The notes under the pieces: generated by a model
The model's database searches: none
What the model was told of the DNA's origin: nothing
The model's input: the letters and a program-made list of their open reading frames with translations, nothing else
Source of the DNA: an uncultured Mycolicibacterium sp.
Lineage (GTDB): Bacteria > Actinomycetota > Actinomycetes > Mycobacteriales > Mycobacteriaceae
NCBI GenBank assembly: GCA_945957405.1
Contig: CAMFLL010000021.1
Span: forward strand, 1 to 39,912
Direction: 5' to 3'
Length of the DNA: 39,912 nt
Shown here: positions 32,121 to 39,911 of the stretch, in pieces
Numbering within the stretch: the stretch's first letter is position 1
Layout of the letters: every line of letters begins with the position of its first letter
Program-made: the position numbers and the translations under genes

Positions 32121-33068
32121 CTATGGGACGACGATGGTCTCCCCGCCGCTGGCGGCGATATTCGAAAAGCCGTCGCCGGTCACGCTGATGCTGTTGTCGT
32201 CTCCGCTCGCACCGATGACAGAGTTGCTGTCGCCTTTGACGGTCACGGTGTTGTCGTCGCCGAAGTCGGTTCCGATGGTGTAGTTGTTGTCGCCGTCGAC
32301 GGTGATGGTGTTGCCCGATCCGTGACCAGCCACGATGTTGGTGTTGTTGTCACCCCTGACGGTGACGGTGTTGTTGTCGCCGGTGTTGAAATCGGCTGTG
32401 CCGATGTAGGCGTCGCTGTTGGTGCCGACCGCCTTGGCTGTGTTGTGGTTGCCGGACTGAGCGTTCGCCGTCGAGTAGTCGCACACTGCGCGACGAGGGC
32501 AGTCGGTTCGGGCGACGGCCTTGTTGTCGTCGCCGAATCCAGCGCCGGCCTTCGCCTGGTTGGAGGCCTTGGCAAGATTGCGATTTCCCGCACCTGCGGT
32601 GCCCGCGAAGCTGTTGTCGGTCGCAATGGCCTTGTTGCGTGTTCCGCCATCGACTGAGGCGGTGCTGTTGTTGATCGCGACGGCCTTGTTCCTGGTCCCC
32701 CCGGCAATGGATGCGGCGCTGTTGTTGACCGCCACCGCCACACCCTGGTTGCCCGATACCGTCGCGGTGCCGTTGATCGCGACCGCGACACTGCGACTGC
32801 CCTTCGTGGTGGTGGCCGTGCTGCCACCGGCGCCGATCGAACGACCGTTGACGGAAACCGCCACGCCGCCTCCCAGACCATGTGTGTCGGAATCGGCGGT
32901 GTCGGCGGAGGCATTGGGGGCACCGACACCCAACGCCACCAACGGCGCCCCGGCAGTCAGGCCCAGGAACAGCACGGCTCGTGCGATTGGCGCCGGTTTC
33001 GCGGGGCGCCGGCGATGCGCACCACCGCGCCGTGCAACCGCATCACCGTTGACTATTCCCTTGGACAT
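32121..33068 (-). CDS. Secreted Asn/Asp/Gly-rich repeat protein, predicted beta-solenoid
   Basis: Signal peptide, repeated 'GGTRNKAVAINNSTASVDGGTRNKAIA' and 'GDDNTVTVKGD' units; AGAAGGGG RBS before ATG 33068. Confidence 0.8.
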   Translation of the reverse strand: MSKGIVNGDAVARRGGAHRRRPAKPAPIARAVLFLGLTAGAPLVALGVGAPNASADTADSDTHGLGGGVAVSVNGRSIGAGGSTATTTKGSRSVAVAINGTATVSGNQGVAVAVNNSAASIAGGTRNKAVAINNSTASVDGGTRNKAIATDNSFAGTAGAGNRNLAKASNQAKAGAGFGDDNKAVARTDCPRRAVCDYSTANAQSGNHNTAKAVGTNSDAYIGTADFNTGDNNTVTVRGDNNTNIVAGHGSGNTITVDGDNNYTIGTDFGDDNTVTVKGDSNSVIGASGDDNSISVTGDGFSNIAASGGETIVVP

Positions 33069-33176
33069 ATGCACCCCTTCTCGTCACCGCCGTCGACAAG
33101 CACGATCCTCGAACGTGCGTCAGCGTGCGTCCTCAGTGGTGGGCTACTGCACTTCCCCGACCCTGCCCGCCACCGT

Positions 33177-34801: not shown

Positions 34802-35710
34802 ATGAGAGAGCACATCGACGTCACAGCCGTGCTGCAGGCGGGCGTGAATGGACGGCGCCTGGGCAGGTTGATGGGCGGTGCGATTCTTTCTGGTGCGATG
34901 GCCGTCGAGGTGTTGGCGCCGGCCGGAGTAGCCCATGCCAGCTGTGTCTCGTTCAGCGGACTCAACAGCGGCGGTGACTGCACCAGCACGATCGGACCCA
35001 ACGTTGCCGTGGCGATCGGCCCTGGCGCCACGGCCACCGCGGTGAACGGCTTTTTCGGCACTGCAATTGCGGTGGGCAACGGTGCCGCGGCGACTCAGAC
35101 CGGAGGCCTGTTCGGAACCGCGATCGCGGTCGGTGGCGACGCCAATGCGGCTGCCACTGCGCCGAAGTCGTCCACCGTCTTACCCGTAGCCGTTGCGGCC
35201 CGCGGCGCCCAGTCCGAGTCAGAGGGCAATCTCGATATCGCCGCGGCCACAGGTCCCGATGCCGTCGCCATTGCGCGTGGCGTCCTCAACGGCGCCGCCG
35301 CGGTGCGTCCCGGCGCGAGCACAGTGGCGCAAGGACATCTCAACGGCGCCGTGGCCGTGGGTACCGATGCCATTTCGCAGAGCCTGGGCAACGTGAACAC
35401 CGCAATCGCCGGACGTAGGGAAGCGACAGTCCAGAGCGCCGGATCGGGCAACGTCGCGTTGGCCCTCGGCAAGCCTGGGACAAACGCGAAGTTCGGCCCT
35501 CAGCCCACCCGAGCGTTCGCCGTGGGCACCTTCAACAGGGCGGTTGCCATCGGCAACGGCAATGAAGCAGATGTGCTTGGTGCGGCGCCCAGCCCGAAGG
35601 CACGAAACAGTACGGCCGCCGTTGTGGGCAGGGGTAGCACCGTGCAGGTGACGGGAAACAATCGCGTCGGTGCCGCGTTCGGCCGCAACAAAACCGTCGA
35701 GAAGAGTTGA
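34802..35710 (+). CDS. Secreted Ala/Gly-rich repeat protein with YadA-head-like AIAxG repeats
   Basis: Signal peptide ending 'VAHAS'; 'NVAVAIGPGATATAVNGFFGTAIAVGNGAAATQTGGLFGTAIAVGGDANA'; GGGAGG before ATG. Confidence 0.8.
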   Translation: MREHIDVTAVLQAGVNGRRLGRLMGGAILSGAMAVEVLAPAGVAHASCVSFSGLNSGGDCTSTIGPNVAVAIGPGATATAVNGFFGTAIAVGNGAAATQTGGLFGTAIAVGGDANAAATAPKSSTVLPVAVAARGAQSESEGNLDIAAATGPDAVAIARGVLNGAAAVRPGASTVAQGHLNGAVAVGTDAISQSLGNVNTAIAGRREATVQSAGSGNVALALGKPGTNAKFGPQPTRAFAVGTFNRAVAIGNGNEADVLGAAPSPKARNSTAAVVGRGSTVQVTGNNRVGAAFGRNKTVEKS

Positions 35711-35905: not shown

Positions 35906-35933
35906 CCATCTGTGGCTGCTACCGCTACGAATA
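35906..35933 (+). promoter_or_regulatory. SigK-like promoter of dipZ
   Basis: CCATCT (35906-35911)-N16-CGAATA (35928-35933); ATG begins 7 nt after the -10, compatible with a leaderless transcript. Confidence 0.5.
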
Positions 35934-35939
35934 GGCGAC

Positions 35940-37697
35940 ATGTACACGCTGGCCCTGATCGGTTTCCTCGGTGGACTGATAACCGGCATCTCCCCCTGCA
36001 TCCTTCCCGTGATCCCGGTGATCTTCTTCTCGGGCGCACAGCGTGGCGACACGGTCCAACCCGCCGCAGCAGACGAACGGGACGGCGGCGTCGCGACCAC
36101 GGTGCGCACGAAGCGGGCACTGACCGAGACATTGCGCCCATACCGGGTGATCGCCGGCCTGGTGCTGAGTTTCAGCGTGGTCACCCTCGCCGGATCCGCG
36201 GTGTTGACACTGCTGCATCTTCCACAGGATGCGATCCGGTGGATCGGCATCGCGGCGTTGAGCGTGATCGGGATCGGCCTGATCTTCCCCCGGATCGAGG
36301 GATTGCTGGAGCGACCGTTTTCGCGGATCCCCCAGTGGAATGTCGGTGAGGGACGCAGCGGGTTCGGCCTGGGTCTCGCACTGGGTCTGCTGTTCGTCCC
36401 GTGCGCCGGACCGGTGCTCGCGGCAATCGTGCTGGCCGGGGCCACCGGCTCGGTCGGTATCCCCACCATCGTCTTGACCGTGTCGTTCGCGATCGGCACC
36501 GCCATCCCGCTGTTGGTCTTCGCGCTCGCCGGCCAACGGGTTTCCGAGCGGGTCGGAGCCTTCCGCCGCCGGCAGCGTCACATTCGGATCGCGGGTGGCG
36601 TCGTGATGCTCGCCTTCGCTGTGGCGATCGCCTTGAACGTGCCCGCCACGCTTCAGCGGATCATCCCTGATTACACCGGTGCGCTCCAGGACAAGGTGAG
36701 CGGCTCCGATGAGATCGCCACGCAACTCGACCTCGGCGGGATCGTCAACGATCAGAACAGGGCGCTGTCGAATTGCACCAACGGCGCAGCCAAGCTCGAA
36801 AGTTGCGGCACAGCACCGGATATAACGGGCATAGCGGGATGGTTCAATACACCGGGTAACACCCCGCTCGACCTCAAGAGCCTACGCGGCAAAGTAGTGC
36901 TGATCGATTTCTGGGCGTACTCCTGCATCAACTGCCAACGCGCAATCCCCCACGTCACCGACTGGTACGCAAAGTACAAAGACGCGGGCCTCGAAGTGGT
37001 CGGTGTACACAGTCCGGAGTACGCGTTCGAAAAGGTCCCGGCCAATGTCGTCAGCGGTGCCGCTGATCTGGGTATCACCTACCCGGTCGCCCTCGACAAC
37101 CGCCTCTCGACATGGACCAATTACCGAAACCGCTACTGGCCCGCCGAATACCTGATCGACGCGAGCGGAACGGTCCGCCACATCAAATTCGGCGAAGGCG
37201 ACTACAACGTCACCGAGAACCTGATCCGGCAGCTCCTCACCGAAGCCGATCCGGGCATCACACTCCCGCCGCCCAGCGACGCCCCCGACACCACTCCGCG
37301 GACCAACCTGACACCCGAGACATACTTCTCGGTGGGCAAGTCCACCAACTACGGCGGCAGCGGCGCCTACCAGGCCGGCGAGGCCAGCTTCGACTACCCG
37401 GCCACTCTCGCCGACGATACATTCGCGCTGCGTGGAGCGTGGCTGCTGGATTATCAGGGCGCCACGGCGGGCGCCGACACATCCACCATCGAACTCAACT
37501 ACCACGCCAAGAATGTGTACCTGGTGGTCGGCGGCGAGGGCACCGCGACGGTCATTCGGGGTGATCAGGCGCACGCCATTCCGATCAGCGGACCGCCGAC
37601 GTCGCACCAGATCGTCGCCGGCGACCTGGCCGCCCGCGGCAACCTCGAAGTGCGACTCAGCCAGGGCCTGCAGGCATATTCGTTCACCTATGGCTGA
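35940..37697 (+). CDS. dipZ: DipZ: CcdA-like thiol transporter fused to a TlpA-like thioredoxin domain and C-terminal extracellular domain
   Basis: '[22 protein letters not shown]' CcdA motif; '[17 protein letters not shown]' CxxC thioredoxin motif; C-terminal beta-rich domain. Confidence 0.95.
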
Positions 37698-37726
37698 GAT
37701 CATCGAGCATGGATGCCCAAGCGGCC

Positions 37727-37754
37727 CCATCCACGCTGAGCTCGGTTCCGAATG
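37727..37754 (+). promoter_or_regulatory. SigK-like promoter of the fasciclin lipoprotein gene
   Basis: CCATCC (37727-37732)-N16-CGAATG (37749-37754). Confidence 0.6.
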
Positions 37755-37812
37755 GCAAGTACCACAACGATTGCGACGGCAGCGGCCGGTCACAGCAAAG
37801 GAGTCCTGTTCC

Positions 37813-38517
37813 ATGATGGTTGCCAGCAAGACAGGTACCGCGATCACCGCAGCTGGATTGGCGCTCATCGTCTTGTCAGGGTGCTCGAGCGGCGACGACA
37901 ACGCATCGTCGGGCTCGTCAGCCGCTCCGGCGATGACCGGCCCCGCCATGACCGGCCCCGCCATGACGGGGCCCGCGATGACCGGGCCGGCCATGACTGG
38001 CCCGTCAGCCGCAGACGCGACCGCTGACCTGGTGGGCCCGGGGTGCGCGGCCTATGAACAGCAGAATCCGACCGGCCCTGGCTCCGTGACCGGGATGGCA
38101 CAGGACCCGGTTGCCACTGCGGCGTCCCACAACCCCGCCCTCACCACCTTGAACTCGGCAATCTCGGGCCAGCTGAATCCCGGTGTGAATCTGGTCGACA
38201 CCCTCAACGGAGGCGACTTCACGGTCATTGCACCGACCGATGATGCGTTCGCCAAGCTCGATGCGGCCACGCTGGAAAAGCTGAAGACCGATGCGCCACT
38301 TTTGAAGAGCATCCTCACCTTCCATGTGATTGCCGGCCAACGGAGCCCACTTCAGGTCGCCGGAACCCATAAGACGCTCGAGGGTGCCGACGTCACCGTC
38401 GCCGGTGCCGGCGACGCCCTGACATTCGACGGATCCGGCCTGGTGTGCGGCGGGGTGCACACCGCCAACGCCACGGTTTACCTGGTCGATACCGTGATGA
38501 TGCCGCCGGCCGAGTAG
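37813..38517 (+). CDS. Fasciclin-domain lipoprotein, MPT83/MPT70-like
   Basis: Lipobox 'IVLSGC'; fasciclin '[48 protein letters not shown]'; AAAGGAG upstream. Confidence 0.95.
37927..38001 (+). repeat. Five tandem 15-bp units encoding (PAMTG)5
   Basis: ccggcgatgaccggc / cccgccatgaccggc / cccgccatgacgggg / cccgcgatgaccggg / ccggccatgactggc. Confidence 0.97.
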
Positions 38518-39069
38518 GACACCTCCGCCGGGCGCCTGGGCGACCCGGAAGCTGAGAGCGACGCCGTTCATGCAGTAGCGCAGCCCCGTCGGTTTGGGAC
38601 CGTCGTCGAAGACGTGGCCGAGATGGCTGCCGCACCGGCTGCACAACACCTCGGTGCGCGCCATGCCCAGTGTGTCGTCCTCGCGTTCGATGACAGCGTT
38701 GTCGAGCGCCTGGAAGAAACTCGGCCAACCGGTGCCGCTGTCGAACTTGGTCGTCGACGAGAAGAGGTCGAGTGAGCAACCAGCACAACTGAATACACCA
38801 GAGCGGTGCTCGTCGTCGAGCGGGCTGCTGAACGGCTCCTCGGTGCCCGCGGCGCGGAGAATGTTGTACTGCTCCGGGGTGAGCTGTCTGCGCCACTCCG
38901 CGTCGGTATGGGCGATTTGGAAGTGCTCGGTGGACGCATTGGGCGGGGTGGCGCCCGCGAGGCTGTGCAGCACACTGCATCCCGTTGTGAGTCCGAGTAA
39001 GGACACGCCGAGCAGCACATCTCGTCGGGTCAGAGCCCGCCGTGGCGCCGGCGGAGTCCGGACGGTCAT
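38005..39069 (-). CDS. msrB: Exported (Tat/lipoprotein-type) peptide-methionine (R)-S-oxide reductase; MsrB domain about 38530-39069, with an antisense read-through C-terminal extension to 38005
   Basis: '[22 protein letters not shown]' Tat plus lipobox; 'SCAGC', '[12 protein letters not shown]', '[32 protein letters not shown]'; no in-frame stop until 38005. Confidence 0.85.
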
Positions 39070-39118
39070 GAATCGACTCTACGTCCACCAGATCGACGCA
39101 GCCGGCTATCGGTATTAC

Positions 39119-39145
39119 CCATCCATGACGACTACGCGCCGAACA
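39119..39145 (+). promoter_or_regulatory. Weaker SigK-like promoter upstream of msrA
   Basis: CCATCC (39119-39124)-N15-CGAACA (39140-39145); spacer one shorter and -10 diverged. Confidence 0.3.
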
Positions 39146-39179
39146 CAGTCATGGCCGCGATGAGAGGACAATCAGCGCT

Positions 39180-39911
39180 ATGCCACGTCGTAGGTGGGTA
39201 AGCATCGCGGTCGGTCTCGCCCTGGTTGTCGCCGCCGGAGCGGTGTTCCTTCAAGAGCAACCAGGCGTGCAGGCGCGCAGTGTGACAGCGGGATCGGTTG
39301 CGGTCCCGGCACCCGATGTGGACGAGCCCGTACCGAACGGCGACACGAGCGAAACAGCGATCCTGGCCGGCGGCTGCTTCTGGGGCGTCCAGGGTGTCTT
39401 CGAGCACGTCAAAGGGGTGACCGAGGCGCTGTCCGGGTATACCGGTGGCGGCCGCCAGACCGCGAACTACGAGGATGTCAGCTCCGGCGATACCGGGCAC
39501 GCGGAATCGGTACGCATCACCTACAACCCGACTCAGGTCACGTACGGCCAACTGTTGCGGATCTACTTCTCGGTGGTCACCGATCCCACCCAGCTCAACC
39601 GTCAGGGTCCCGACGAAGGCACTCAATACCGATCCGCGATCTTCGCGCAGGATGACACCCAGAAGCGGGTTGCGCAGTCCTACATCGACCAGTTGGGCCG
39701 GGCAGCTGTCTTTTCCGGCCCGATCGTCACCACCGTGTCACCGAAGGCAGCGTTCTTTCCCGCGGAGCGACACCACCAGGACTTCCTGAACTCGAATCCG
39801 ACCTATCCGTACATCGCCATCAACGACATGCCCAAGGTCGACGGGCTCAAGCAGCTCTTCCCGGAGCTTTACCGCGACCAGCCGGTGCTGGTGCTCGCTG
39901 ACAGTCGATGA
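39180..39911 (+). CDS. msrA: Secreted/membrane-anchored peptide-methionine (S)-S-oxide reductase
   Basis: N-terminal signal anchor 'RRRWVSIAVGLALVVAAGAVFL'; 'AILAGGCFWGVQGVFEHVKGV', 'GYTGGG', 'YEDVSSGDTGHAESV', 'ERHHQDF'. Confidence 0.95.
   Translation: MPRRRWVSIAVGLALVVAAGAVFLQEQPGVQARSVTAGSVAVPAPDVDEPVPNGDTSETAILAGGCFWGVQGVFEHVKGVTEALSGYTGGGRQTANYEDVSSGDTGHAESVRITYNPTQVTYGQLLRIYFSVVTDPTQLNRQGPDEGTQYRSAIFAQDDTQKRVAQSYIDQLGRAAVFSGPIVTTVSPKAAFFPAERHHQDFLNSNPTYPYIAINDMPKVDGLKQLFPELYRDQPVLVLADSR

Follow-up and report, generated by a model that had tools for sequence, protein, structure and literature searches.

In the mycobacterial locus described here, a SigK-type dipZ-fas unit is joined to an exported one-cysteine msrB/msrA pair, and we consider it somewhat probable that DipZ is the protein that feeds these Msr enzymes. 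Such an extracytoplasmic pathway is best read, as far as its sequence tells, as a variant of the CcdA-Etrx-MsrAB kind, joined in this case to the SigK dipZ-fas locus. Systems that repair oxidised methionine outside the membrane are known from Gram-negatives and streptococci, and this one would show how mycobacteria and related bacteria carry out such repair. The MPT83/MPT70 antigens and DipZ have been familiar for a long time, yet the physiological role of DipZ is still under discussion; an exported one-cysteine Msr would offer it a concrete, testable partner, and the literature searched yielded no mention of dipZ and msrA together in one paper.

The window, meaning the whole stretch of DNA that was analysed, is the entire 39,912-base contig C21 of a draft genome (627 contigs, 89.9% complete) assigned to an uncultured Mycolicibacterium. 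The following features were recognised, promoters being scored with a PWM trained on the fas promoters of other genomes:

35906-35932, plus strand: SigK-type promoter of dipZ, CCATCT-N15-ACGAAT (PWM 19.0, second best of the window)
35940-37697, plus strand: dipZ, 585 aa, with DsbD_TM, AhpC-TSA/Redoxin and Thioredoxin_10 domains by Pfam; its CcdA/DsbD_TM channel covers aa 4-231 (DsbD_TM E 3.8e-18)
36924-36935, plus strand: codons of the CINC motif in the TlpA-like thioredoxin domain of DipZ (Pfam)
37311-37694, plus strand: Thioredoxin_10/CBM-like C-terminal domain of DipZ (Pfam)
37727-37753, plus strand: SigK-type promoter of fas, CCATCC-N15-CCGAAT (exact match; PWM 23.1, best of the window)
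37813-38517, plus strand: fas, gene of an MPT83/MPT70-like fasciclin lipoprotein (PF02469 E 1.2e-22)
37930-38004, plus strand: five AMTGP repeats in fas, seen in the sequence
38005-38544, minus strand: continuation of the msrB frame past the enzyme part, overlapping fas in antisense at 38005-38517 (whole ORF 38005-39069)
38545-39069, minus strand: enzyme part of msrB (PF01641, SelR, E 8e-48; TIGR00357)
39115-39130, plus strand: conserved element TTACC-N6-TGACG between the divergent msrB and msrA, from an alignment of upstream regions
39119-39144, plus strand: doubtful SigK-like site before msrA, CCATCC-N14-CCGAAC (PWM 17.1, third best of the window)
39180-39911, plus strand: msrA (PF01625, PMSR, E 3.6e-55), with an N-terminal signal peptide or anchor

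The four adjacent envelope-protein genes claimed in the initial annotation are real, Pfam domains confirming each of them in the order dipZ(+), fas(+), msrB(-), msrA(+). They do not make up one unit, since msrB lies on the minus strand, running towards fas and away from msrA, and this difference in strand rules out a single four-gene operon. The frame of msrB lacks the stop found in its relatives and continues for about 180 codons into fas, down to 38005, whereas these relatives end within a few residues of ALxFR. Together with the fragmentation of the draft and the position of msrA at the contig end, this loss of the stop exactly at the fas-msrB junction could indicate an assembly chimera, in which case the arrangement of the window would not exist. 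We regard this as highly improbable, because a genome of nine contigs and 100% completeness (G1109, locus L292) also has dipZ followed by convergent msrB and msrA, and because dipZ-msr linkage is present in other well-assembled genomes such as G1038, which is a single contig. Nor is msrA a contig-end stub, its frame being complete to 39911.

The elements of an outward electron route are encoded beside the Msr genes: a membrane channel of CcdA type, present as the DsbD_TM domain of DipZ, and what appears to be a thioredoxin-fold donor domain of extracytoplasmic type, present in the same protein with CINC as its CxxC motif, just as the initial annotation had described. Known structures cover the DipZ ectodomain, MPT70 and MsrA. 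In a PDB search the window DipZ matches the ectodomain structures 2hyx/5cyy at E ~1e-163, and its CINC-bearing domain matches ResA and other thioredoxin-family structures. Known donors of extracytoplasmic Msr are among these matches: the Trx domain of MsrAB from Neisseria (2h30, 2fy6, 2jzr) and probably pneumococcal Etrx proteins, to which 2yp6/4hqz seem to belong.

Both reductases carry the export signals that had been proposed for them, a Tat motif (LTRRDVLLG) with a lipobox (LTTGC) in MsrB and a signal peptide or anchor in MsrA. Inspection of relatives extends these features, for the RR motif occurs in all 20 distinct exported MsrB examined and the lipobox in all but one, while nearly all exported MsrA have a hydrophobic N-terminus. 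The window MsrB is of the zinc type, with its catalytic Cys in RYCMN and without a resolving Cys (SGTGWPSF). In the window MsrA the sole Cys of the protein is that of GCFWG, and the resolving Cys that follows the catalytic one by 141 residues in the cytosolic mycobacterial type is absent, which rules out two-cysteine Msr chemistry for this exported enzyme. The same holds more widely: at all 32 distinct loci examined the enzyme domain of the exported MsrA contains one Cys, against a 2-Cys pair in 26 of 27 cytosolic MsrA, and the exported proteins form a separate group in the MsrA tree. The exported Msr enzymes are thus a distinct one-cysteine set; as the exported MsrA have one Cys where their cytosolic relatives have two, an external thiol donor would be needed.

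Is DipZ this donor? The proposal of the initial annotation depends on recurrent linkage of dipZ with exported msr genes, and our neighbourhood survey found it: exported msrA, mostly with msrB, adjoins dipZ in eight actinobacterial genomes (the window, L103, L107, L288, L292, L294, L298/L313 and L302), a count that understates linkage beyond 1.5 kb in the genomes of 20 exported-msrA loci. These loci show at least six different gene orders. On the MsrA tree the dipZ linkage needs five changes, three of them forced by strong branches, and on the DipZ tree the msr linkage needs five changes, all five forced, so that dipZ and exported msr would have been joined separately in about five lineages. 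L107 and its sister L167 share a modA-like gene and msrA, but only in L107 does dipZ lie between the two. Five linkages among the 18 other genomes of the genus that have both genes would arise by chance with a probability of ~1e-10. Orthologues of dipZ are present in 140 of 298 genomes of the genus and are commoner where an exported MsrA is found (19/27 vs 121/271; p 0.009 before any correction for kinship). The pairing recurs also in Patescibacteria, where L073 has the order dipZ-msrB-msrA-msrB downstream of an exported thioredoxin and further cases are found in L074, L075, L264 and L248; some Msr proteins of these patescibacterial operons look cytosolic. Export signals, DsbD_TM channel and recurrent linkage together bear out the proposal of an extracytoplasmic-type Msr pair beside a predicted outward electron channel.

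This linkage is a minority state among mycobacterial dipZ loci. No exported msr lies beside dipZ in 36 named actinobacterial loci (flanks up to 10 kb, kansasii-group mycobacteria included), nor in 40 further loci of a class survey, a few of which are duplicates or cut by contig ends, and a general dipZ-msr linkage in mycobacteria is thereby ruled out. The association of fas with dipZ is far commoner and likewise reaches Patescibacteria, which suggests that the main partner of DipZ may be the fasciclin protein, in whose disulfide formation a role for DipZ has been proposed (PMC9861118). Moreover, 8 of the 27 genomes with exported MsrA lack a dipZ orthologue; this excludes a strict dependence of exported Msr on dipZ and implies that another donor must exist, so that DipZ is a plausible Msr electron donor but not an obligate one. 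From these facts one could argue that DipZ serves fasciclin disulfides or general envelope thiol chemistry while some other exported donor recycles the Msr enzymes, their adjacency reflecting a shared use under envelope stress. Such a role would agree with the proposals that DipZ acts on the disulfides of MPT83/MPT70 (PMC9861118) or is the partner of the oxidising Mt-DsbE/DsbF (PMC3853704). We judge it possible but on balance unlikely, because dipZ and exported msr were united on about five separate branches and because four genomes (G042, G1038, G1018 and G1094) each have one dipZ beside msr and another elsewhere. The separate formation of the pairing suggests instead that DipZ feeds electrons to extracytoplasmic protein repair.

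Under the favoured reading, in which the SigK-controlled dipZ-fas unit and the divergent msrB/msrA pair would constitute a composite envelope-redox locus, electrons would most likely pass from cytosolic thioredoxin to the CcdA channel of DipZ and thence to its external TlpA-like CINC domain. This domain would then reduce the sulfenic acid formed on MsrA or MsrB, the former repairing the S-sulfoxide and the latter the R-sulfoxide of methionine in envelope proteins.

The initial annotation had further proposed the four genes as a candidate SigK-controlled module, and this part stands only for dipZ and fas. The genome encodes SigK on contig C140 (NF007228 295 bits vs a cut-off of 226) with RskA (RskA_C E 5.9e-25), and the sigK-rskA locus carries its own SigK-type site. 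The -10 of the dipZ promoter ends 7 nt before the ATG, and its mRNA is therefore probably leaderless; most fas-linked dipZ loci have a SigK-type site at the same place and the same 7-nt distance. Apart from the dipZ, fas and msrA sites, the best PWM score in the window is 7.0. By sequence, SigK control can thus be assigned to dipZ and fas, whereas for msrA it is doubtful. The motif made it look strong at msrA: the only two strict matches in the window lie at fas and msrA (0.12 expected), and among 24 strict matches in the whole genome only these two are intergenic and correctly oriented, according to a rough gene call. With L313, where msrA lies behind a SigK-promoted fas-dipZ, and with the sigK-rskA locus, this might suggest a single SigK regulon module of four genes, with msrA read from a SigK promoter of its own and msrB controlled along with it. 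That extension we rate as rather improbable. No SigK-type promoter precedes msrB (best PWM score -2.7), and the msrA site has a spacing of 14, against 15 in all 31 strict fas promoter matches. Its -35 half falls within TTACC-N6-TGACG, an element found with at most one mismatch, in either orientation, in 19 of 32 exported msrA upstream regions vs 1% of shuffles, and the exported msr pairs sharing it have no SigK -10. A scan of the upstream regions of the other exported msrA genes found no SigK site, and this, with the alignment of relatives' upstream regions, led us to downgrade the msrA promoter. Finally, the upstream DNA is readable at six further dipZ loci linked to msr; none of them has a SigK site at dipZ, and only L313 among them has one at the linked fas.

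Among known systems, CcdA, a TlpA-like thioredoxin and extracytoplasmic MsrA/MsrB activities are co-encoded in Streptococcus pneumoniae, where the Etrx proteins feed SpMsrAB2 via CcdA (PMC3914529), and also in S. gordonii (SdbB/Sgo_1177-CcdA-MsrAB) and Fusobacterium (Trx/CcdA-MsrAB), as described in PMC7034828 and PMC9239216. Our locus resembles the pneumococcal one in encoding channel, TlpA-like external thioredoxin, MsrA and MsrB together, but here channel and thioredoxin belong to one protein, which ends in a CBM-like tail. MsrA and MsrB are encoded as separate enzymes with a single cysteine each, the latter a predicted Tat lipoprotein, gene orientation is mixed and a fasciclin lipoprotein gene lies nearby. 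Neisseria PilB/MsrAB, which is fed by DsbD, has a TlpA-like donor domain related to that of DipZ, but it is a three-domain fusion (TlpA-like + MsrA + MsrB) with a different sigma factor and no DipZ. The ECF sigma factor controlling its gene is sigma-E (PMC2893595). With the mpt83-dipZ-mpt70 locus in the SigK regulon of M. tuberculosis and its relatives the window shares a dipZ with a SigK-type promoter, a SigK-promoted MPT83-like lipoprotein and sigK-rskA, but dipZ is not flanked by same-strand MPT83- and MPT70-type genes; there is one fas, downstream of dipZ, with a Met-repeat linker and the exported msrB/msrA adjoining. Protein MetO is reduced outside the cytoplasm by MsrPQ as well, a system whose molybdoenzyme receives electrons of the respiratory chain through a haem protein; none of the four genes here is of this kind.

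The fasciclin protein itself agrees with its description as an MPT83-like lipoprotein with Met repeats, having an LSGC lipobox (Cys at aa 24) before its five AMTGP repeats and matching the MPT70 structure 1nyo at E 4.9e-65. Linkers rich in Met are characteristic of MPT83/MPT70-like lipoproteins, and the one encoded here might be a natural substrate or sacrificial target of the Msr pair. A wider notion, which we hold to be quite improbable, is that the SigK-dipZ-MPT83/MPT70 locus is at root a defence against methionine oxidation, with Met-rich fasciclin lipoproteins acting at the surface as oxidant sinks or sensors regenerated by DipZ electrons, directly or via the exported one-cysteine Msr. 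The gene upstream in L073, at first taken for that of a Met-rich protein, proved to encode an anchored thioredoxin whose linker is rich in Met. A second MPT70-like gene is present in the genome of the window, on contig C541.

Pfam, NCBIfam and PDB comparisons confirm the identities of all four genes at the right end of the window, which are arranged as follows.

35940-37697, + strand: dipZ
37813-38517, + strand: fas, encoding an MPT83/MPT70-like fasciclin lipoprotein
38005-38544, - strand: run-on of the msrB frame, its usual stop missing; about 180 codons, antisense to most of fas
start at 39069, - strand: msrB
39180-39911, + strand: msrA

The initial annotation had described four adjacent genes, which holds, while leaving unstated that msrB occupies the opposite strand, convergent with fas and divergent from msrA. 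MsrB relatives terminate a few residues from the ALxFR motif, where the msrB of the window has no stop; the run-on may be the scar of a rearrangement uniting the two gene pairs, or an error of the draft (the source genome is a 7.8 Mb draft in 627 contigs, one of which, of 39,912 bases, is the entire window). Two secreted-looking proteins with Ala/Asn/Gly-rich repeats (AVAVNN.., AIAVGNG..), to which Pfam and NCBIfam gave no match, are encoded at 32121-33074 (-) and 34802-35710 (+), the latter immediately upstream of dipZ.

How unusual is the association of dipZ with exported msr genes? It is rare, since no msr lies in the examined flanks (up to 10 kb) of 36 dipZ loci from named GTDB Actinomycetota, including kansasii-group mycobacteria (fasciclin genes are usually present in these flanks), nor near any of 40 dipZ loci fetched from a class-wide sample, in which 45 of 395 genomes have the DipZ-type C-terminal domain; yet it is recurrent. 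The family search found the exported MsrA group in 6 of 201 genomes, with dipZ next door in three (the window, G001 and G042), and in the genus search 27 of 298 genomes carry it, all scoring at least 219 bits while no other hit exceeded 134; five of them besides the window have dipZ within 1.5 kb of the gene. Gene orders at individual loci are given below, with '<' marking a gene on the opposite strand.

L288: <msrB msrA dipZ
L292: dipZ <msrB msrA
L294: msrA dipZ
L313: fas dipZ msrA
L302: msrA-dipZ, msrB divergent
L107: dipZ <msrA msrB
L103: <dipZ msrB msrA

The linkage on which the initial annotation had built recurs above chance, the probability of five linkages in 18 genomes being about 1e-10 (assuming a 10 kb target and a 6.2-Mb genome). 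The linked state takes five changes (gains or losses) on the MsrA tree, where strong branches force three, and five on the DipZ tree, where all are forced; despite the limited detail of these trees, built by a quick method from fragmentary rows, the linkage is polyphyletic. The sister loci L107 and L167 differ in the presence and absence, respectively, of dipZ at an otherwise common site.

Across the genus, dipZ is found in 19 of the 27 genomes with exported MsrA versus 121 of the 271 without it (p 0.009, kinship ignored); in the other eight of the 27 a dipZ orthologue is absent, which means that donors other than DipZ must be possible. In four genomes dipZ is duplicated, with one copy of each pair next to msr: G042 (contigs C1 and C23), G1038 (C1), G1018 (C17 and C72) and G1094 (C34 and C191). 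In G042 the other copy adjoins a fasciclin gene. The DipZ-type domain occurs in 44 of 287 patescibacterial genomes, and msr directly adjoins dipZ in 2 of 40 fetched loci (L264 and L248), as well as in L073, L074 and L075. The row at L073 (7547-11319) opens with a thioredoxin that is anchored in the membrane and has a Met-rich linker; DipZ, MsrB and MsrA follow, and then another MsrB, which carries a signal anchor. L074 and L264 have parts of this operon. Some patescibacterial Msr proteins look cytosolic, which renders the parallel with the window imperfect. Fasciclin-domain genes also adjoin dipZ in the patescibacterial loci L252, L253 and L270, so that the dipZ-fasciclin association extends beyond Actinomycetota.

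The exported enzymes have distinctive cysteines. In exported MsrA the catalytic cysteine is the sole cysteine of the enzyme domain (32 distinct loci, the window's included), and nearly all sequences have an N-terminal hydrophobic stretch; cytosolic MsrA of the same family has the classical pair 141 residues apart in 26 of 27 cases and four cysteines in the remaining one. Every exported MsrB compared (20 distinct loci) carries a twin-arginine motif, followed in all but one by a lipobox cysteine, and its cysteines are four for zinc and one catalytic. Exported MsrB reads SGTGWPSF against SHCGWPSF in cytosolic zinc-type MsrB (two relatives), a substitution that alone is not unique to export, since the cytosolic MsrB of the same genome, an enzyme without the zinc cysteines, reads SGSGWPSF. 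From established Msr chemistry, a one-cysteine Msr would form a sulfenic acid needing direct reduction by an external thiol. The DipZ ectodomain has a CINC motif, and its solved relatives beyond DipZ include ResA, the thioredoxin domain of Neisseria MsrAB (2h30, 2fy6, 2jzr), and 2yp6 and 4hqz, which we take to be pneumococcal Etrx proteins.

Electrons would most likely pass from cytosolic thioredoxin to the CcdA part of DipZ, from there to its CINC domain, then to the sulfenic acid of MsrA or MsrB, and finally to methionine sulfoxide of envelope proteins. The outermost steps of this chain follow from known families; those between them are suggested by the recurrence of the linkage, by the chemistry of one-cysteine enzymes and by the relatives of the donor domain. 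The CcdA-Etrx-MsrAB pathway would share this working principle (PMC3914529, from which the role of Etrx is taken; PMC7034828; PMC9239216), whereas the window has channel and donor fused, separate one-cysteine enzymes and a fasciclin partner; we claim kinship only as a likeness in working. The functional idea has more in its favour than its author could know, and the DipZ-Msr system merits a biochemical test.

In the fasciclin lipoprotein of the window, five AMTGP repeats (37930-38004) separate the lipid anchor from the domain. Over the 35 residues that follow the lipid cysteine, fasciclin lipoproteins of dipZ loci (n=15) have 1.87 methionines versus 0.45 in other lipoproteins of the same loci (n=33; p 2.8e-5), an enrichment that fits, without demonstrating, the idea that these proteins are repaired by Msr or absorb oxidants. 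Met-rich low-complexity linkers, with up to 9 Met in 52 residues, occur in the dipZ-adjacent fasciclin lipoproteins of L206, L097, L059, L198, L045 and the window. The second fasciclin gene of the genome, MPT70-like, lies at a contig edge (L185, G000:C541); the opposite end of C541 encodes MCIRDR, resembling sequencing-adapter residue.

SigK control had been proposed for the whole module. A matrix compiled from 26 distinct promoter sites (CCATCC-N15-CCGAAT) that precede fasciclin genes elsewhere, outside this genome, was scanned over both strands of the window and gave three sites, the next best score being 7.0.

35906-35932: SigK-type site before dipZ, score 19.0
37727: SigK-type site before fas, score 23.1
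39119: SigK-like site before msrA, score 17.1
39115-39130: conserved element TTACC-N6-TGACG, between the divergent exported msrB and msrA

By sequence, SigK control holds for dipZ and fas only, which have the first two sites. SigK and RskA are encoded on contig C140 of the same genome. A site scoring 24.8 precedes an amine-oxidase gene upstream in the sigK-rskA cluster of C140. In M. tuberculosis, mpt83, mpt70 and dipZ each have their own SigK promoter (PMC9861118). The -10 of the dipZ site ends 7 nt ahead of the ATG at 35940, a gap that predicts a leaderless mRNA; the distance is kept in most fasciclin-linked dipZ loci, and leaderless dipZ mRNA is predicted in many Actinomycetota. The dipZ of Mycolicibacterium komossense (L035), 81% identical to the window's, keeps the SigK site and has neither fasciclin nor msr neighbour in the flanks examined.

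For the msr genes the proposal fares less well. The matrix scan found no SigK site before msrB, and the site before msrA has a spacing of 14, against 15 in all strict fas sites, with its CCATCC inside TTACC-N6-TGACG. In relatives sharing this element the SigK -10 does not follow, and a scan of other exported msrA genes found no SigK site. In the six other msr-linked dipZ loci with readable upstream DNA, dipZ itself lacks a SigK site; a linked fas has one in L313 alone. The evidence at msrA is therefore weaker than first appeared and, from the spacing, the overlap and the absence of SigK sites at msrB and other exported msrA genes, the exported pair seems to be under its own regulation. With at most one mismatch, in either orientation, TTACC-N6-TGACG occurs upstream of exported msrA at 19 of 32 loci versus 1% of shuffled regions, and may act as an operator for the exported Msr genes. 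Loci that have it upstream of msrA include L107, L167, L278, L281-L286 and L296, and it occurs in two genera.
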